From the NCBI RefSeq assembly GCF_005222485.1, contig NZ_CP029078.1, positions 7,689,501 through 7,753,500 on the forward strand: 64,000 nucleotides of DNA, written 5' to 3'. Under the pieces are notes generated by a model that made no database searches, was not told the DNA's origin, and saw only the letters and a list, made by a program, of their open reading frames with translations. The translations under genes were made by a program, and so were the position numbers. Below, in pieces: positions 6,551 through 14,352 of the stretch (the stretch's first letter is position 1; each line of letters starts with the position of its first letter). This DNA comes from Streptomyces griseoviridis. GTDB taxonomy: Bacteria > Actinomycetota > Actinomycetes > Streptomycetales > Streptomycetaceae.

Positions 6551-6984
6551 GGCGGCAGCCCTCCTTCCCTGCGGTCTCCCTCGGTCCTGCGTCACAGTGA
6601 ACTACGGGCAGGGGGTATCCGGCAACGCGGCACTGAACACCGTTGTCATATGCCCTGACCTGCGAAAACGAAGCGCAGGTCAGGGCAGCCTCAGTCCCCC
6701 GCGGGGCCCCTCGCGCCCACCTGCCCGCGAGGGCGGCGCGGCGCCCCGATGTCCCGGATGCCCGGTCTGGGAGCGCGGTTTGTCGACGGAGCCCCCGATC
6801 ACCGATGATGATCTCGGCAAAGGCCGGTGAAGACGGTGCTGATCGGCCCGTGAACGGGCGGTGAACGGCCGTCCGCGGCGATCCGATAACCTCTGCCGAC
6901 ACGCCGCCCGCCTGGTGCAGCCAAGGGGCGTCCCCACATGCTCATGACCGGCGCCCGCGCGTCGGCACCCAGGGAGTGAGTCCG
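6551..6984. promoter_or_regulatory. 434-bp divergent intergenic region with a strong hairpin
   Basis: Separates the CDF exporter from the CDP-alcohol cassette. At 6651-6687 there is a perfect 14-bp inverted repeat (TGCCCTGACCTGCG / CGCAGGTCAGGGCA, 9-nt loop). It has no T-tract, and lies about 100 bp upstream of the CDF start and 300 bp upstream of the cassette. It could be an operator, an RNA hairpin in a leader, or a terminator. A GATAAC-like -10 candidate occurs near 6885. No ORF here is convincing. Confidence 0.5.
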
Positions 6985-8787
6985 TTGTCGACCGCCATCC
7001 TCACCGGCCAGCCGGTGCCCGGATCGTCGATCGAGGGTGATCTGCGCTCCCTCGGCTTCGACGTCAAGGTCGCCGCGCACACCAGCGACGCGGAGACGCT
7101 GCTGGCGCAGGTGCCGGGCGAGGACCGGGTCGCCGTCGTCGACGCCCGCTTCGTCGGCCATGTGCACGCGCTGCGCCTCGGCCTCACCGATCCGCGGTTC
7201 CCGCTCGCCGCGATCCCCGGCGCCGTCACCGCGCAGCCCGCCGCCCGCAGGCAACTGGTCCGCGCGCTGGCCCGGGAGACCTCCGCGGGCGGCGCCACCG
7301 CCGTCGCCGTCGACAGCCTCCCCGACCGTGTCGTCACCGCCCTGGACGGCGACGGCGCCGAGGTGCGCCGCCCCGACCTCGGCAGCCTGGTCGCCGCCGT
7401 ACCGGCCGACCCGCAGGCCCGCAACGAGATACGGCAGGCCGTGTCCGCCGTGGACGACGAGGCCGTCCGCCTGAAGTCGGCCGTGAAGGCCCGCGACGGC
7501 TTCTTCACCACCTTCTTCATCAGCCCCTACTCCCGCTACCTGGCCCGCTGGTGCGCCCGTCGCGGACTGACCCCCAACCAGGTCACCACCGCCTCCCTGC
7601 TCACCGCGCTGATCGCGGCGGGCTGCGCGGCCACCGGCACCCGCGCCGGCTTCGTCGCGGCGGGCGTGCTGCTGATCGCGTCCTTCGTGCTCGACTGCAC
7701 CGACGGCCAGCTCGCCCGCTACTCCCTCCAGTACTCCACCCTCGGCGCCTGGCTCGACGCCACCTTCGACCGGGCCAAGGAGTACGCCTACTACGCGGGA
7801 CTCGCGCTCGGCGCGGCCCGCGGCGGCGACGACGTCTGGGCCCTCGCGCTCGGCGCGATGATCCTCCAGACCTGCCGGCACGTGGTCGACTTCTCCTTCA
7901 ACGAGGCGAACCACGACGCCAGTGCCAACACCAGCCCCACCGCCGCCCTCTCCGACAAGCTCGACAGCGTCGGCTGGACGGTCTGGGTGCGCCGGATGAT
8001 CGTCCTGCCGATCGGCGAGCGCTGGGCGATGATCGCCGTCCTGACGGCGGTGACCACCCCGCGTCTCACCTTCTACGTCCTGCTCGTCGGCTGCGCCCTC
8101 GCCGCCGGCTACACCACCGCGGGCCGGGTGCTGCGGTCGGTGACCCGCAAGGCGCGGCGCACCGACCGGGCCGCCGAGGCGCTGGCCGACCTCGCCGACA
8201 GCGGCCCGCTCAGCACGCTCCTGGTACGGGCGGGCGCCGGCCGCCTCCGTCTCCCGGCCGCCGTCGCCGCGGCCCTCGCCGCCCTGCTCGTCGTCGTCCC
8301 GGCCCTGGTCTGGGGCGCCGCCTGGGCCACCGTCGGCTGCGCGGTGCTCTCCGTCCTCGCCTCCGCCGCGGCCGTCGCGCGCCCCCTCAAGGGCGCCCTC
8401 GACTGGCTGGTGCCCCCCTTCTTCCGGGCCGCCGAGTACGTCACCGTCCTGGTGCTCGCGGCCGAGGCGGACGTGAACGGAGCGCTTCCTGCGGCTTTCG
8501 GGCTGGTGGCCGCCGTCGCCTACCATCACTACGACACGGTGTACCGCATCCGCGGTGACGCCGGAGCGCCGCCGGCCTGGCTGGTGCGCGCCATCGGGGG
8601 GCACGAGGGCCGCACCCTGCTCGTCGTCGTCCTCGCCACCGTGCTCAGCGCCTCGCAGTTCACGGTCGCGCTCACGGTTCTCGCCGTGGCCGTGGCCCTG
8701 CTGGTGCTCGTCGAGAGCATCCGCTTCTGGGTGGCCTCCCACCTCGGGGGCGCGCCCGCCGTACACGATGAAGGAGAAACCGCATGA
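6985..8787 (+). CDS. CDP-alcohol phosphatidyltransferase, large multidomain form (DUF5941-like)
   Basis: 600 residues from TTG 6985, which sits 8 nt after AGGGAG; the in-frame GTG at 6976 overlaps that ribosome site and is less likely. Residues 1-150 form a soluble N-terminal domain, residues 180-400 the membrane CDP-alcohol phosphotransferase core with the full signature D237-x2-DG-x2-AR-x8-G254-x3-D258-x3-D262. The remainder has more membrane segments ending near VLVESIRFWVAS. It should move a phospho-alcohol from a CDP carrier to an acceptor alcohol at the membrane. First gene of a cassette; stop overlaps the next start (ATGA). Substrates unknown. Probably the catalytically intact member of the two phosphotransferases here. 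Confidence 0.88.
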   Translation: MSTAILTGQPVPGSSIEGDLRSLGFDVKVAAHTSDAETLLAQVPGEDRVAVVDARFVGHVHALRLGLTDPRFPLAAIPGAVTAQPAARRQLVRALARETSAGGATAVAVDSLPDRVVTALDGDGAEVRRPDLGSLVAAVPADPQARNEIRQAVSAVDDEAVRLKSAVKARDGFFTTFFISPYSRYLARWCARRGLTPNQVTTASLLTALIAAGCAATGTRAGFVAAGVLLIASFVLDCTDGQLARYSLQYSTLGAWLDATFDRAKEYAYYAGLALGAARGGDDVWALALGAMILQTCRHVVDFSFNEANHDASANTSPTAALSDKLDSVGWTVWVRRMIVLPIGERWAMIAVLTAVTTPRLTFYVLLVGCALAAGYTTAGRVLRSVTRKARRTDRAAEALADLADSGPLSTLLVRAGAGRLRLPAAVAAALAALLVVVPALVWGAAWATVGCAVLSVLASAAAVARPLKGALDWLVPPFFRAAEYVTVLVLAAEADVNGALPAAFGLVAAVAYHHYDTVYRIRGDAGAPPAWLVRAIGGHEGRTLLVVVLATVLSASQFTVALTVLAVAVALLVLVESIRFWVASHLGGAPAVHDEGETA

Positions 8788-9536
8788 TCGGCCTCGTGCT
8801 CGCGGCCGGCGCCGGACGGCGTCTGCGCCCCTACACCGACAGCCTGCCCAAGGCGCTGGTGCCGGTGGGGCCCGCGGGCATAGAGGACTCGATCACGGTC
8901 CTCGACCTGACCCTCGGCAACTTCGCCGAGATCGGTCTGACCGAGGTCGCCGTCATCGTCGGCTACCGCAAGGAAGCCGTCTACGCGCGCAAGGAGGAGC
9001 TGGAGGCGAAGTACGGCCTCACGCTCACCCTGATCGACAACGACAAGGCCGAGGAGTGGAACAACGCCTACTCCCTGTGGTGCGGCCGGGACGCCCTCAA
9101 GGACGGCGTGATCCTCGCCAACGGCGACACCGTGCACCCGGTCTCCGTGGAGCACACGCTGCTCGCGGCCCGCGGTGCGGGGCGGAAGATCATCCTCGCC
9201 GTCGACACGGTCAAGGACCTCGCCGACGAGGAGATGAAGGTCGTCGTCGACCCCGCCAAGGGCATGACGAAGATCACCAAGCTGATGGACCCCGCCGAGG
9301 CCACCGGCGAGTACATCGGCGTCACCCTCATCGAGGGCGACGCCGCCCCCGAACTGGCCCACGCCCTGAAGACCGTGTGGGAGAGCGACCCGCAGCAGTT
9401 CTACGAGCACGGCTACCAGGAGCTGGTCGACCGCGGCTTCCGCATCGACGTCGCGCCGATCGGCGACGTCCAGTGGGTGGAGATCGACAACCACGACGAT
9501 CTCGCCCGCGGACGGGAGATCGCATGCCTGTACTGA
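8784..9536 (+). CDS. nucleotidyltransferase, phosphocholine/polyol-phosphate cytidylyltransferase-like
   Basis: 250 residues. N-terminal nucleotide-binding motif LAAGAGRRLRPYTDSLPKALVPVG is that of sugar-phosphate nucleotidyltransferases; the NNAYSLWCGRDAL segment resembles the LicC-type cytidylyltransferases, and ANGDTVHP carries the metal-binding Asp. It lacks the C-terminal left-handed helix seen in GlmU-type enzymes. Expected role: activate a phosphorylated alcohol as an NDP (probably CDP) derivative for the phosphotransferases encoded on either side. Overlaps the previous gene by 4 bp and the next by 13 bp, which strongly suggests translational coupling. Confidence 0.87.
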   Translation: MIGLVLAAGAGRRLRPYTDSLPKALVPVGPAGIEDSITVLDLTLGNFAEIGLTEVAVIVGYRKEAVYARKEELEAKYGLTLTLIDNDKAEEWNNAYSLWCGRDALKDGVILANGDTVHPVSVEHTLLAARGAGRKIILAVDTVKDLADEEMKVVVDPAKGMTKITKLMDPAEATGEYIGVTLIEGDAAPELAHALKTVWESDPQQFYEHGYQELVDRGFRIDVAPIGDVQWVEIDNHDDLARGREIACLY

Positions 9537-10585
9537 CCCGGCTGATCCCCTCGCCGCTCGTCGTGGACATCCGCCCCGGTGCCCTCGACGACCTCGCCGG
9601 TGTCCTCGCCGACGAGCGCATCTCGCACTCGGGCCGGCTCGCGGTCGCCGTCAGCGGCGGCTCGGGCGCCCGGCTGCGCGCCCGCCTCGCCCCCTCGCTG
9701 CCCGGCGCCACCTGGTACGAGGTCGGCGGCGGCACCCTCGACGACGCCGTCCGGCTGGCCGGCGACATAAAGGCGGGACACTACGACGCCGTCGTCGGGC
9801 TCGGCGGCGGCAAGATCATCGACTGCGCCAAGTTCGCCTCGGCCCGGGTCGGCCTGCCGCTGGTCGCCGTGCCCACCAACCTCGCGCACGACGGCCTCTG
9901 TTCACCGGTCGCCACCCTCGACAACGACGCGGGACGCGGCTCCTACGGAGTGCCCAACCCGATCGCCGTCGTGGTCGACCTGGACATCATCCGCGAGGCC
10001 CCGGCGCGGTTCGTGCGCGCCGGGATCGGCGACGCCATCTCCAACATCAACGCCATCGCGGACTGGGAGCTGGCCAACCGGGTCAAGGGCGAGAAGATCG
10101 ACGGCCTCGCCGCCGCCATGGCCCGCCAGGCGGGCGAGGCGGTGTTCAGGCACCCGGGCGGCATCGGCGACAACGACTTCCTCCAGGTACTCGCCGAGGC
10201 CCTGGTCCTCACCGGCGTCGCCATGTCGATCTCGGGCGACTCACGCCCCGCCTCCGGCTCCTGCCACGAGATCAACCACGCCTTCGACCTGCTCTACCCC
10301 AAGCGCGCCGCCAGCCACGGCGAGCAGTGCGGCCTCGGCGCGGCCTTCGCGATGTATCTGCGCGGAGCCCACGACCAGGCCGCGGAGATGGCCCGGGTGC
10401 TGCGCGGGCACGGACTGCCGGTGCTCCCGGAGGAGATCGGCTTCACGGTCGCGGAGTTCGTGCGCGCCGTCGAGTTCGCCCCCGAGACCAGGCCCGGCCG
10501 CTACACCATCCTCGAACACCTCGACCTCAAGACCGACCAGATCAAGGACACCTACGCCGACTATGTCAAGGCCATCGGTAGCTGA
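9524..10585 (+). CDS. glycerol-1-phosphate dehydrogenase-like, iron-containing alcohol dehydrogenase family
   Basis: 353 residues from ATG 9524 (MPVLTRLIPSPL). Rossmann-like nucleotide site VVGLGGGKIIDCAKFAS and metal ligands typical of the family: Asp in GIGDAISN, His in SCHEINHAFD and His in SHGEQCGLG. The whole resembles the archaeal EgsA / bacterial AraM glycerol-1-phosphate dehydrogenases that reduce dihydroxyacetone phosphate to sn-glycerol-1-phosphate. Next to a cytidylyltransferase and two CDP-alcohol phosphotransferases, it probably makes the polyol phosphate that is activated (inference). 3-dehydroquinate synthase-like or other polyol-phosphate activities are not excluded. Confidence 0.85.
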   Translation: MPVLTRLIPSPLVVDIRPGALDDLAGVLADERISHSGRLAVAVSGGSGARLRARLAPSLPGATWYEVGGGTLDDAVRLAGDIKAGHYDAVVGLGGGKIIDCAKFASARVGLPLVAVPTNLAHDGLCSPVATLDNDAGRGSYGVPNPIAVVVDLDIIREAPARFVRAGIGDAISNINAIADWELANRVKGEKIDGLAAAMARQAGEAVFRHPGGIGDNDFLQVLAEALVLTGVAMSISGDSRPASGSCHEINHAFDLLYPKRAASHGEQCGLGAAFAMYLRGAHDQAAEMARVLRGHGLPVLPEEIGFTVAEFVRAVEFAPETRPGRYTILEHLDLKTDQIKDTYADYVKAIGS

Positions 10586-11342
10586 ACTCCGCCCGGTCGT
10601 CCACCCCGCGGGGGTGAAGGACCGGCGCAGCGGTGAGCACTGGATGGGGCGCCTCTACATGCGAGAGGTCTCCCTGCGCGTCGACCGCTACCTGGTGAAC
10701 ACCAGGGTCACGCCCAATCAGCTCACCTACCTGATGACCGTCTTCGGCGTCCTCGCCGCCCCGGCCCTCCTGGTGCCGGGGATCACCGGCGCCGTCCTCG
10801 GGGTGTTCTGCGTCCAGATGTACCTGCTGCTCGACTGCGTCGACGGCGAAGTCGCCCGCTGGAAGCAGCAGTTCTCGCTCGGCGGCGTCTACCTCGACCG
10901 GGTCGGCGCCTATCTGACCGACGCGGCCGTCCTGGTCGGCTTCGGGCTGCGCGCCGCCGACCTGTGGGGCAGCGGCCGCATCGACTGGCTGTGGGCCTTC
11001 CTCGGCACCCTGGCCGCCCTCGGCGCCATCCTGATCAAGGCCGAGACCGACCTGGTCGGCGTCGCCCGTCACCAGGGCGGTCTGCCGCCGGTCAAGGAGG
11101 CCGCCGCCGAGATGCGCTCCTCCGGCATGGCCCTGGCCCGCCGGGCCGCCGCCGCCTTCAAGTTCCACCGGCTGATCCTCGGCATCGAGGCGTCCCTGCT
11201 GATCCTGGCCCTGGCCGTCGTCGACCAGATCCGCGGCGACTTCTTCTTCTCCCGCCTCGGGGTCGCCGTGCTGGCCGGCATCGCCCTGCTCCAGACCCTG
11301 CTGCACCTGGTCTCCATCCTCGCGTCGAGCAGGCTGCGGTGA
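10563..11342 (+). CDS. CDP-alcohol phosphatidyltransferase-like membrane protein with altered signature
   Basis: 259 residues, about six membrane segments. The signature is D91-x2-DG-x2-AR-x8-G108-x3-D112 and then Ala116 where the fourth, catalytic-base Asp is expected; Asp120 lies one helical turn later. The codon (10908-10910) reads GCC, so this is not a reading ambiguity. Either Asp120 takes over, or this copy has lost or changed activity. It overlaps the upstream dehydrogenase by 23 bp and the downstream gene by the GTGA or nearly so, placing it firmly in the operon. Homologue of the family by fold, chemistry uncertain. Confidence 0.85.
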   Translation: MSRPSVAELRPVVHPAGVKDRRSGEHWMGRLYMREVSLRVDRYLVNTRVTPNQLTYLMTVFGVLAAPALLVPGITGAVLGVFCVQMYLLLDCVDGEVARWKQQFSLGGVYLDRVGAYLTDAAVLVGFGLRAADLWGSGRIDWLWAFLGTLAALGAILIKAETDLVGVARHQGGLPPVKEAAAEMRSSGMALARRAAAAFKFHRLILGIEASLLILALAVVDQIRGDFFFSRLGVAVLAGIALLQTLLHLVSILASSRLR

Positions 11343-11347
11343 CCGCC

Positions 11348-12220
11348 ATGAAGGTCGGCGCCGTCATCATCACCATGGGCAACCGCCCCGAGGAGCTGCG
11401 CGCTCTGCTCGACTCGATCGCCAAGCAGGACGGCGACCCGGTGAGCACCGTCGTCGTCGGCAACGGCTCACCCGTCCCCGACGTCCCCGACAACGTCAGG
11501 ACCGTCGAGCTGCCCGAGAACCTCGGCATCCCCGGCGGCCGCAACATCGGCATCGAGGCGTTCGGCCCCAGCGGCCGCGACGTCGACGTGCTCCTCTTCC
11601 TCGACGACGACGGACTGCTCGCCCAGCACGACACCGCCGAACTCTGCCGCCAGGCCTTCGCGGCCGACCCGAAGCTCGGCATCATCAGCTTCCGCATCGC
11701 CGACCCCGACACCGGGGCCACCCAGCGCAGGCACGTGCCGCGGCTGCGCGCCGCCGACCCGATGCGCTCCTCCCGGGTCACCACGTTCCTCGGCGGCGCC
11801 AACGCCGTCCGCACCCAGGTGTTCGCCGAGGCGGGCGCCCTGCCCGACGCGTTCTTCTACGCCCATGAGGAGACCGACCTCGCCTGGCGCGCGCTCGACG
11901 CCGGCTGGATGATCGACTACCGCTCCGACATGGTGCTGTACCACCCCACGACGGCTCCCTCCCGGCACGCGGTCTACCACCGCATGGTGGCCCGCAACCG
12001 GGTCTGGCTGGCCCGCCGCAACCTCCCCGCGCCCCTGGTCCCGGTCTACCTCGGCGTCTGGATGCTGCTCACGCTGCTGCGCCGGCCCTCGCGTCCCGCC
12101 CTGAAGGCGTGGTTCGGCGGGTTCAGGGAGGGCTGGAACACCCCCTGCGGACCCCGCAGGCCCATGAAGTGGCGTACGGTGTGGCGGCTGACCCGGCTGG
12201 GCCGACCCCCCGTCATCTGA
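11348..12220 (+). CDS. family 2 glycosyltransferase
   Basis: 290 residues from ATG 11348; GTG 11339 overlapping the upstream TGA is an alternative. GT-A fold: VGAVIITMGNRPEELRALL at the start, VVVGNGS, the nucleotide-sugar loop GIPGGRNIGIEA, the metal motif LFLDDDG, GGANAVRTQVF, and acceptor-side HEETDLAWR (ED-like). Resembles rhamnosyl/galactofuranosyl transferases that act on lipid-linked acceptors at the inner face of the membrane. A hydrophobic patch (LGVWMLLTLL) near the C-terminus may attach it to the bilayer. Fits a role in building the glycan part of the cassette product. Confidence 0.9.
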   Translation: MKVGAVIITMGNRPEELRALLDSIAKQDGDPVSTVVVGNGSPVPDVPDNVRTVELPENLGIPGGRNIGIEAFGPSGRDVDVLLFLDDDGLLAQHDTAELCRQAFAADPKLGIISFRIADPDTGATQRRHVPRLRAADPMRSSRVTTFLGGANAVRTQVFAEAGALPDAFFYAHEETDLAWRALDAGWMIDYRSDMVLYHPTTAPSRHAVYHRMVARNRVWLARRNLPAPLVPVYLGVWMLLTLLRRPSRPALKAWFGGFREGWNTPCGPRRPMKWRTVWRLTRLGRPPVI

Positions 12221-12319
12221 CAAGCTCGTCCCCGTGGGAGTCCGGCCCCGGTCCGGGGTCCGGACCCCATGTCATGTCCGCACCCGCTGCGCATTCCGAA
12301 GACGAAAGTGTTTCCCCTG

Positions 12320-13249
12320 GTGAGTGAGACAACGCACGACGGCACGGTCGCCCTCGGCACGCCCGTGTCGCCCGACGACGGCCTCACGTCGGCCCAGCTT
12401 GCCGACCGGTACGGGCTCACCGTGAGCGGCGCCCGGCCCTCGCTCGTCGAGTACGTCCGCCAGCTCTGGGACCGGCGCCACTTCATCCTCGCCTTCTCGC
12501 GGGCGAAGCTGACCGCCCAGTACAGCCAGGCGAAGCTCGGCCAGCTCTGGCAGGTGGCGACGCCGCTGCTCAACGCGGCCGTCTACTTCTTCATCTTCGG
12601 CCTGATCCTCAAGGCCGACCGGGGCATGTCCCGAGACGTGTACATCCCCTTCCTGGTCACCGGCGTCTTCGTGTTCACCTTCACGCAGTCCTCGGTGATG
12701 GCGGGCGTGCGCGCGATCTCCGGAAACCTCGGCCTGGTGCGGGCGCTGCACTTCCCGCGCGCCTCGCTGCCGATCTCGTTCTCGCTCCAGCAGCTCCAGC
12801 AGCTGATGTTCTCGATGATCGTGCTGTTCGCGGTCGCCATCGGCTTCGGCAGCATCCCCGACCTGTCCTGGCTGCTGATCGTGCCGGTGCTGGTGCTCCA
12901 GTTCCTCTTCAACACCGGCCTCGCCCTGATCATGGCGCGGGCCGGCGCGAAGACCCCCGACCTCGCGCAGCTGATGCCGTTCGTGATGCGGACGTGGATG
13001 TACGCGTCCGGCGTGATGTTCTCCATCCCGATCATGCTGGAGGACAAGCCGCGGTGGGTGGCGGACATCCTCCAGGTGAACCCGGCCTCCATCTACATGG
13101 ACCTGATGCGCTTCGCGCTGATCGAGGACTACTCGGCCGCCAACCTCCCCGACCACGTCTGGGCGCTCGCCGGCGGCTGGGCCCTGCTGCTCGCCGTGGG
13201 CGGGTTCGTGTACTTCTGGAAGGCGGAGGAGAGGTACGGCCGTGGCTGA
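12320..13249 (+). CDS. ABC-2 type transporter permease (Wzm/TagG-like)
   Basis: 309 residues from GTG 12320 (MSETTHDG); GTG 12308 or 12269 are possible starts and no start has a clear ribosome site. After a soluble 50-residue N-terminus comes the amphipathic segment LWDRRHFILAFSRAKL and six membrane helices with the family text AQYSQAKLGQLWQVATPLLNA. Belongs to the O-antigen/teichoic-acid exporter permeases. Overlaps the ATPase gene by 8 bp. It probably exports the lipid-linked product of the upstream enzymes. A 99-bp gap separates it from the glycosyltransferase gene. Confidence 0.9.
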   Translation: MSETTHDGTVALGTPVSPDDGLTSAQLADRYGLTVSGARPSLVEYVRQLWDRRHFILAFSRAKLTAQYSQAKLGQLWQVATPLLNAAVYFFIFGLILKADRGMSRDVYIPFLVTGVFVFTFTQSSVMAGVRAISGNLGLVRALHFPRASLPISFSLQQLQQLMFSMIVLFAVAIGFGSIPDLSWLLIVPVLVLQFLFNTGLALIMARAGAKTPDLAQLMPFVMRTWMYASGVMFSIPIMLEDKPRWVADILQVNPASIYMDLMRFALIEDYSAANLPDHVWALAGGWALLLAVGGFVYFWKAEERYGRG

Positions 13250-14042
13250 GCACCAGGAGACCGGGCGGACGGGTGCCCCCGTCCCGACGGTCATCGCCGA
13301 CGAACTGCACATCGTCTACCGCGTCAACGGCGCCAAGACCGGCAAGGGCAGCGCCACCGCCGCCCTCAGCCGCATCATCAAGCGCGGCTCCGACGACACC
13401 GCCCGCGGCGTGCGCAAGGTGCACGCCGTCCGTGGCGTCTCCTTCGTCGCCTACCGGGGCGAGGCGATCGGCCTGATCGGCTCGAACGGCTCGGGCAAGT
13501 CGACCCTGCTGCGCGCCATCGCCGGGCTGCTGCCCGCCGAGCGCGGCAAGGTCTACACCGACGGCCAGCCCTCCCTGCTCGGTGTGAACGCGGCCCTGAT
13601 GAACGATCTGACGGGCGAGCGGAACGTCATATTGGGCGGGCTCGCCATGGGCATGTCCCGCGAGCAGATCATGGCGCGCTACCAGGGCATCGTCGACTTC
13701 TCGGGCATCAACGAGAAGGGCGACTTCATCACCCTGCCGATGCGCACCTACTCCTCCGGCATGGCGGCCCGGCTGCGGTTCTCCATCGCCGCCGCCAAGG
13801 ACCATGACGTCCTCATGATCGACGAGGCGCTCGCCACCGGCGACCGCAAGTTCCAGAAGCGCTCCGAGCAGCGCATCAGGGAACTGCGCAAGGAGGCCGG
13901 CACGGTCTTTTTGGTCAGCCACAACAACAAGTCCATCCGGGACACCTGCGACCGGGTGCTCTGGCTCGAACGCGGCGAACTGCGGATGGACGGACCCACC
14001 GACGAGGTCCTCAAGGAGTACGAGAAGTTCACGGGCAAGTAG
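13242..14042 (+). CDS. ABC transporter ATP-binding protein (Wzt/TagH-like)
   Basis: 266 residues from GTG 13242. Walker A GSNGSGKST at 80-88, signature YSSGMAARL at 170-178, Walker B LMIDEAL at 191-197 and H-loop His227 in VSHNN. An insertion of about 30 residues (GKGSATAALSRIIKRG) before the Walker A is common in polysaccharide exporters of this type. There is no C-terminal carbohydrate-binding domain, so the substrate is probably exported without length capping as in TagH/short Wzt forms (inference). Last gene of the cassette, followed by a strong terminator. Confidence 0.93.
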   Translation: MAEHQETGRTGAPVPTVIADELHIVYRVNGAKTGKGSATAALSRIIKRGSDDTARGVRKVHAVRGVSFVAYRGEAIGLIGSNGSGKSTLLRAIAGLLPAERGKVYTDGQPSLLGVNAALMNDLTGERNVILGGLAMGMSREQIMARYQGIVDFSGINEKGDFITLPMRTYSSGMAARLRFSIAAAKDHDVLMIDEALATGDRKFQKRSEQRIRELRKEAGTVFLVSHNNKSIRDTCDRVLWLERGELRMDGPTDEVLKEYEKFTGK

Positions 14043-14064
14043 CCCCCCGGACGACCGCAGCCCA

Positions 14065-14102
14065 CGCGGGGCCCCGCCGGACTCCTCCGGCGGGGCCCCG
14101 CG
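14065..14102 (+). terminator. 17-bp perfect hairpin terminator
   Basis: Arms CGCGGGGCCCCGCCGGA and its exact complement with a 4-nt loop, 22 bp after the ABC ATPase stop. No T-tract, as usual in Streptomyces. It separates the export cassette from the hopanoid operon. Confidence 0.8.
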
Positions 14103-14352
14103 TCTGCAAAGGAAGTGTCAACTCGGCCTCGGCGCAGGAATCTTGAGGCCAATCGGTGTGTTGTTGTGATGTGCGGGACACCCCGACGATCCTCGTTGCG
14201 TTGTACAACGTAAGCTGGTCCGGTGCTGAATCGCGGCAATCGGGGCGATAACGCGCGACACCCTCGATCGAGCAGGCCGCGCGCACGGTCGGGCGGCGTG
14301 TCCGAAATAGTGTGTATTGGGTCCGCAGTGTAGAACGGGAGATGTGACGGCA
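14103..14352. promoter_or_regulatory. upstream region of the hopanoid operon with a 12-bp palindrome
   Basis: This stretch is noticeably richer in A/T than its neighbours. It holds the exact palindrome CGTTGTACAACG at 14199-14210, a candidate operator. The promoter of the hpn operon should lie here; several TA-rich -10 candidates (near 14305-14335) are seen but none is decisive. Confidence 0.5.

Follow-up and report, generated by a model that had tools for sequence, protein, structure and literature searches.

In the Bacillus model of wall teichoic acid synthesis, TagD makes CDP-glycerol from glycerol-3-phosphate, so that wall teichoic acid is built of sn-3 units and lipoteichoic acid of sn-1 units (PMC7086022; here and below, papers are cited for those of their passages that bear on the genes in question). 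We describe a cassette of seven genes, A to G (Table 1), all of which lie on the forward strand at positions 6985-14042 of a 64,000-nucleotide window (the whole stretch of DNA that was analyzed) from Streptomyces griseoviridis, contig NZ_CP029078.1, whose genome is a single contig of 8.96 Mb. The route that we propose resembles that of Bacillus (TagD, TagB/TagF, and TagGH) in its cytoplasmic CDP-glycerol, its lipid-linked acceptor, and its export by a two-gene ABC transporter (PMC7086022, PMC10269677), and the products of F and G are homologous to TarG and TagH. It differs in that TagD scored over its cut-off in none of 101 genomes of the same genus (here and below, that of the source genome, Streptomyces), and in that the cassette adds transferases of the CDP-alcohol phosphotransferase (CDP-AP) fold. 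The reading that we favor, with a probability of slightly more than one-half (about 0.52), is that the cassette is an actinomycete teichoic-acid-type wall module that uses sn-glycerol-1-phosphate (G1P), by way of CDP-glycerol and with export of the TagGH type. It is from gene content, conservation, gene company, distribution, and predicted folds that we infer all of the chemical steps, the stereochemistry, and the final product.

Three other groups of enzymes invite comparison. The C protein is of the same sequence family as Bacillus AraM and archaeal EgsA and shares their motifs, but its partner is a cytidylyltransferase, and GGGPS/PcrB was not found in the 101 genomes of the genus. The logic of a cytidylyltransferase combined with a CDP-AP is common to the IPCT/DIPP synthases and AF2299 of Archaeoglobus, which are similar to the N-terminal domain and core of A and to the fold of D; in the cassette, however, B is a separate enzyme, A has an additional C-terminal membrane domain, and genes for an exporter and a family-2 glycosyltransferase (GT2) are included. 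Unlike the eukaryotic class II enzymes CHPT1 and CEPT1, with which it shares approximately 10% identity, A is bacterial and is fused to a nucleotidyltransferase-like domain, and its lipid acceptor is a predicted one. In 2026, synteny clusters 14531, 14532, and 14538, which contain the same kinds of genes (nucleotidyltransferase, CDP-alcohol phosphatidyltransferase, GT2, araM, tagG, tagH, and crtB), were termed teichoic-acid associated (PMC13118837); mechanism, stereochemistry, the likeness of DUF5941 proteins to CEPT1, and the distribution of TagD, TagF, and GGGPS were not found in the main-text passages of that paper. A Streptomyces dehydrogenase has, moreover, been treated as AraM/EgsA in phylogenies (Yokobori 2016, PMC5059525), and the genus figures in PMC6431249. 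In view of the AraM/EgsA usage and the 2026 synteny, the word "undescribed," which the original prediction (made from the letters of this DNA) had used of the product, was too strong.

A limited literature search, thin on subscription journals, found no paper that proposes making CDP-glycerol from G1P in actinomycetes and none that mentions DUF5941, and the terms "dehydrogenase," "CDP-alcohol," and "TagD" are absent from a survey of bifidobacterial teichoic acids. A search for SCO6752-6754 and SCO6756-6758, which we take to be the Streptomyces coelicolor locus numbers of the cassette in what is presumably the same gene order, returned one network paper dealing with SCO6753 alone. What is new here is the tie between a glycerol-1-phosphate dehydrogenase (G1PDH), a cytidylyltransferase, and wall-polymer genes in a genus sample with neither GGGPS nor TagD over its cut-off, together with the reading of the DUF5941 proteins as CEPT1-like and the anomalous signature found in D.

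The seven open reading frames are real, and the parts list that had been predicted for them is borne out by Pfam, which assigns CDP-OH_P_transf to A and D, NTP_transferase to B, Fe-ADH_2 to C, Glycos_transf_2 to E, ABC2_membrane to F, and ABC_tran to G. These parts support the general logic that had been proposed, in which a polyol phosphate is made, activated, transferred, extended, and exported. A search for conserved seven-gene synteny in Streptomyces had been suggested as a check, and all seven genes are indeed present in 75 of the best 80 of 538 loci found, 79 of the 80 being titled Streptomyces (gene tallies were counted from the printed table), and the arrangement is accordingly no accident. 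Outside the genus, C was found in 31 genomes that span seven families, with 15 in one family. Neighbors within 10.5 kb of C were labeled by phmmer using single queries, with Pfam applied to one or two examples of each; they include B in at least 29 of these loci, D in at least 22, E in at least 20, A or its parts in at least 18, and F and G in at least 17 each, and they further include LCP-like genes (at least 20), a second GT2 (at least 19), GDPD-like genes (at least 12), and divergent PF04464-like genes (at least 9). Several of the loci are short contigs, and the counts are therefore lower bounds. With the TagGH-type exporter, this company speaks for the wall polymer, which the original prediction had named as an alternative to a phosphoglycolipid. 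F, G, and A also occur together in several genomes without C, some of them beside LCP or PF04464-like genes, from which it appears that A belongs with the exporter and that B and C look like the precursor supply.

The distribution of these genes is in accord with such a role. Both C and the DUF5941 domain of A were present in all 101 genomes of the genus sampled, and the function is therefore probably important in this industrial genus. Across the class, C exceeded 200 bits in 47 of 197 genomes; PF04464 (TagF-like) was present in 45 of these 47 as compared to 45 of the 150 C-negative genomes, and strong PF04464 matches outside the genus numbered 29 among the 31 C-positive and 29 among the 150 C-negative genomes. 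In 12 of 59 genomes (counted by reading the lists) PF04464 lay no more than 25 kb from C or DUF5941, where random placement gave a mean of 2.4 and never reached 12 in 5000 runs. The genome of S. griseoviridis itself encodes three GT2-PF04464 proteins. The best match to TagD (TIGR01518, cut-off 165.4 bits) was 34.5 bits in this genome and 70 bits in the genus, and none of the 197 class genomes exceeded the cut-off, two C-negative ones reaching 164.8-164.9 bits; the same search gave a match in 12 of 14 controls, two of them over the cut-off. TagD-like matches of more than 100 bits were found in 13 class genomes, none of which carries C.

Table 1. Positions of the genes of the cassette and of the associated features
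Feature	Position	Strand	Description
A	6985-8787	+	TTG start; 600 aa; in-frame GTG at 6976
B	8784-9536	+	250 aa; PF00483; LicC/IPCT-type cytidylyltransferase-like
C	9524-10585	+	353 aa; glycerol-1-phosphate dehydrogenase (G1PDH)-like
D	10563-11342	+	259 aa; CDP-AP-fold membrane protein
E	11339-12220	+	Family-2 glycosyltransferase; PF00535, E 3.1e-9
F	12320-13249	+	ABC-2 permease, TagG/TarG-Wzm type; PF01061; alternative start 12269
G	13242-14042	+	ABC ATPase, TagH/Wzt type
Hairpin between E and F	12233-12271		From folding of 12221-12275
Hairpin between cassette and hpnC	14064-14102	+	From folding of 14060-14112
Three GT2-PF04464 fusion proteins and TetR-TagG-TagH group (L167, L168)	G000:C1 ~3,660,400-3,679,250		

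The A protein comprises a nucleotidyltransferase-like N-terminal domain (residues 1-156), which is probably degenerate as judged by eye, a CDP-AP core, and a C-terminal DUF5941 membrane domain. The eight-residue CDP-AP signature, D..DG..AR..G...D...D, is complete, and all eight residues are invariant in 28 aligned sequences. In the AlphaFold2 model, residues 168-595 of A align to residues 21-388 of CHPT1 over 317 residues, while the six-helix D aligns with CHPT1 over just 197 (chain 20-246); the model also reveals extra C-terminal helices past the six-helix core of A, a trait of class II (lipid-acceptor) CDP-APs. The enzymes of that class combine a polar CDP-donor with a lipid acceptor (PMC4634129, PMC10156783), which the likeness of A to CHPT1 and CEPT1 fits, and A is predicted to transfer CDP-activated glycerol phosphate to a lipid or lipid-linked acceptor.

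Such an activity might end in a free membrane lipid, with A acting in a Kennedy-like manner to move glycerol-1-phosphate onto diacylglycerol or a glycolipid, and with E and F/G making and moving a phosphoglycolipid or a lipoteichoic-acid-like anchor. We think this unlikely, though deserving of serious consideration, since in other families the cassette keeps company with LCP, GDPD, and PF04464-like genes and since the exporter is of the TagGH type. F matches TarG in the PDB (6jbh, E 2.1e-8), and G matches the TagH model NF010066 (E 1e-52, which is below its cut-off). Outside the cassette, this genome encodes another permease/ATPase pair (L168), which is 68% identical to F and 84% identical to G; it adjoins a divergent TetR gene and lies approximately 10 kb from the three GT2-PF04464 (TagF-like) genes (L167). 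This is the layout of tagR-tagG-tagH in Streptomyces roseosporus, the tagG mutant of which was rescued by the tagG of Bacillus subtilis (PMC10269677); L168 may correspond to that locus, an equation drawn from layout and not from sequence, and layout does not prove orthology.

The wall module that we favor depends further on the precursor that C and B would supply. The best NCBIfam model for C is NF002022 (PRK00843), the NAD(P)-dependent G1P dehydrogenase, at 248 bits (E 1.2e-73), and the two top PDB matches, 4rgq and 4rfl (E 2e-42), are both named glycerol-1-phosphate dehydrogenase, which agrees with the predicted identity of C. The next-best families are glycerol dehydrogenase (87 bits) and dehydroquinate synthase (aroB, 21.8 bits), and a dehydroquinate-type identity of C was rejected on that score. 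The stretches HDG..SP, GD..SN, and SRP.SG, which are common to solved G1PDHs, are kept. So are Asp/His/His positions that we take, from G1PDH structures, to be the metal ligands; they occur in the C protein of this genome and in 42 of the 43 rows of the alignment, the remaining one (L153) having Glu for Asp. Since the score of 248 bits lies below the equivalog cut-off of 413, C is filed as G1PDH-like, and its sequence leads us to predict that it reduces dihydroxyacetone phosphate to sn-G1P. B contains a PF00483 domain, in which many motif residues are invariant among 19 aligned sequences, and its nearest PDB match is LicC (1jyk, E 1.6e-11). Because B adjoins C in 29 of the 31 loci outside the genus, it is predicted to make CDP-glycerol from G1P, and with a G1PDH and a LicC/IPCT-type enzyme as the source the enantiomer would be sn-1.

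Were B and C to handle some other keto-phosphate and its CDP-alcohol, a polyol-phosphate wall polymer would be made without G1P. The sub-threshold score of C leaves room for this, as does the outcome for B, for which NCBIfam gave 15 matches and none over its cut-off. Cytidylyltransferases of the IspD type neighbor C at 15 loci, all in one family, and five of the 15 are fused to an SDR, so that other CDP-alcohols may be made there; a lone IspD may, on the other hand, be an isoprenoid enzyme, and such neighbors are therefore weak evidence for CDP-ribitol. The distance between 248 bits for G1PDH and 87 for glycerol dehydrogenase, and the retention of the three G1PDH stretches, argue for G1P, and we consider another substrate improbable.

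As to D, PF01066 is matched over its cut-off (30.6 versus 22), but the fourth Asp of the signature is missing, its place being taken by His in 31 of 42 rows and by Ala in 11; Ala is found in the window protein and all rows of the same genus, His in most other lineages. The prediction of two CDP-alcohol phosphotransferases is thus upheld as regards fold and domain in both proteins, while D is without the fourth Asp and A has in addition DUF5941 and the nucleotidyltransferase-like fold. The fold of D is closest to AF2299 and IPCT-DIPPS, and both A and D match the IPCT/DIPPS model, far below its cut-off. This likeness would suit A and D as makers, in the manner of DIPP synthases, of a small soluble phosphodiester akin to di-glycerol phosphate; given that a polymer-type exporter and a glycosyltransferase are often alongside and that A has a C-terminal extension, we regard that outcome as very improbable.

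The notion that G1P goes into ether lipids of the archaeal type or into a hopanoid phospholipid is largely refuted. In its favor, G1PDH is the enzyme of archaeal lipid synthesis, Streptomyces species that have the full set of three archaeal lipid genes were reported in a survey of 2019 (PMC6431249), and hpnC lies downstream of the cassette in 78 of the best 80 of 538 loci. Against it, GGGPS (PF01884) was found neither in this genome nor in any of the 101 of the genus (the search matched 7 of 14 controls, including Bacillus subtilis), a result at odds with the survey as far as these genomes are concerned; hpnC, hpnD, hpnE, IDI, and CDF were present at none of the 31 loci outside the genus, and a stable hairpin parts the cassette from the hpn genes. 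An archaeal-type ether lipid was accordingly rejected; hopanoid coupling was likewise rejected as a general link, so that the border with the hopanoid operon, which had also been pointed out, stands as a feature of the close loci and not of those outside the genus.

The hairpin before hpnC is very stable (-48.4 kcal/mol, z -7.6), none of 200 shuffles being equally so, and is probably the transcription end of the cassette. It has no T-run, and we therefore infer the terminator label; a scan for sigma-70 promoters and T-run terminators, which is uninformative for this GC-rich genome, gave no match. Within the cassette, genes A to E overlap their neighbors by 4-23 nt and G overlaps F. F is set off from E by a gap of approximately 50-100 nt with a hairpin inside (-32.1 kcal/mol, z -3.8), and F and G are therefore possibly a separate transcription unit. 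The coupling that had been claimed for all seven genes consequently applies to A through E and to F with G: the cassette consists of a run of five overlapping genes followed by the two genes of the exporter.

To account for these features as a wall module, we propose that C would convert dihydroxyacetone phosphate to G1P, and that B would combine this with CTP to give CDP-glycerol of the enantiomer opposite to the TagD product. The CEPT1-like A might then move glycerol-1-phosphate onto a membrane lipid-linked acceptor, to serve for priming or as a linkage unit. D may be a partner of A or an additional transferase of an unusual kind; E would add a sugar, and F/G would carry the product out in the manner of TagGH. 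In relatives, the LCP proteins encoded nearby could attach the polymer to peptidoglycan, and in Streptomyces the TagF-like polymerases, whose genes lie elsewhere, may draw on this CDP-glycerol as well. At the five loci with an IspD-SDR fusion, the fusion could supply CDP-ribitol for the main chain, glycerol phosphate being the linkage unit. The wall polymer of Staphylococcus aureus is comparable in having a ribitol main chain with a glycerol phosphate linkage unit. Two TagF-like capsule polymerases have been observed to use CDP-sn-1-glycerol in vitro (PMC5974469).

A number of observations weigh against this wall-module proposal, beginning with the sub-threshold scores of B and C given above. 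One of the two capsule polymerases misplaced a sugar linkage with CDP-sn-1-glycerol, and TagF-like domains transfer hexose phosphates too (PMC5974469), so that the presence of PF04464 is no proof of a glycerol-phosphate chain. The cassette lies approximately 4 Mb from the TagF genes of its own genome, and no LCP, GDPD, or TagF genes were found near it in the three loci of the genus that were searched (L161-L163). Because F, G, and A occur together in some genomes that lack C, A may accept CDP-alcohols of other kinds. For CEPT1, dimerization has been described as the role of the extra helices, and the lipid chamber is placed in TM1-6 (PMC10156783); the top Foldseek match for A is the six-helix AF2299, and the altered signature of D is unexplained by the proposal. 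With regard to distribution, PF04464 is lacking in two C-positive genomes (G098 and G160), and 22 genomes strong in PF04464 lack both C and any TagD-like match of more than 100 bits, which indicates that other donors exist. A nearly full-length TagD-like match of 58-70 bits and unassigned specificity is present in 42 of the 101 genomes of the genus, that of S. griseoviridis not among them. The mutual exclusion of C and TagD is weak, with a Fisher p of 0.04, and since these genomes share ancestry, all of the Fisher p values overstate their independence.

A more sweeping proposal, which we offer tentatively and think somewhat doubtful as a whole, is that sn-G1P, the archaeal enantiomer, is used by Streptomyces and by many further actinomycetes for part of a wall polymer, through a TagD-independent CDP-(sn-1)-glycerol pathway, A being a bacterial class II, CEPT1-like enzyme in which DUF5941 represents the extra C-terminal helices. 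A cytoplasmic CDP-sn-1-glycerol route would give wall polymers of opposite handedness, which would matter for hydrolases, phage receptors, and wall turnover, and a very common soil bacterium would then build part of its wall from a mirror-image building block. If this is true, bacterial G1PDHs, which have been considered in connection with archaeal-type lipids and the evolution of membranes (PMC5059525, PMC6431249), would have a concrete job; in this phylum the enzyme would be a wall-polymer enzyme, and its spread among bacteria would tell us little of mixed membranes.

Wherever the organism is given, the 120 best homologues of C carry the name Streptomyces. A homologue search begun from the C protein of L137 lists Microbispora, Nonomuraea, Streptosporangium, and related genera, and from the genera among those matches the family that holds L137 is taken as Streptosporangiaceae. 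Orthologues of C with 47-49% identity occur in four genomes of the same phylum but another class (G332, G369, G389, and G458). Second copies of C are present in L146 (G163:C2), with B alongside, and in L147 (G133:C1), where two PF04464 genes lie 6-8 kb from the copy in G133; both copies adjoin a very large open reading frame and what we presume, from their sequences, to be an Obg-like gene. Two very small actinomycete assemblies, L149 (G067; 1.2 Mb, 76% complete) and L150 (G096; 1.0 Mb, 60% complete), keep B, C, D, and E together with the exporter ATPase, and L150 keeps the permease as well.

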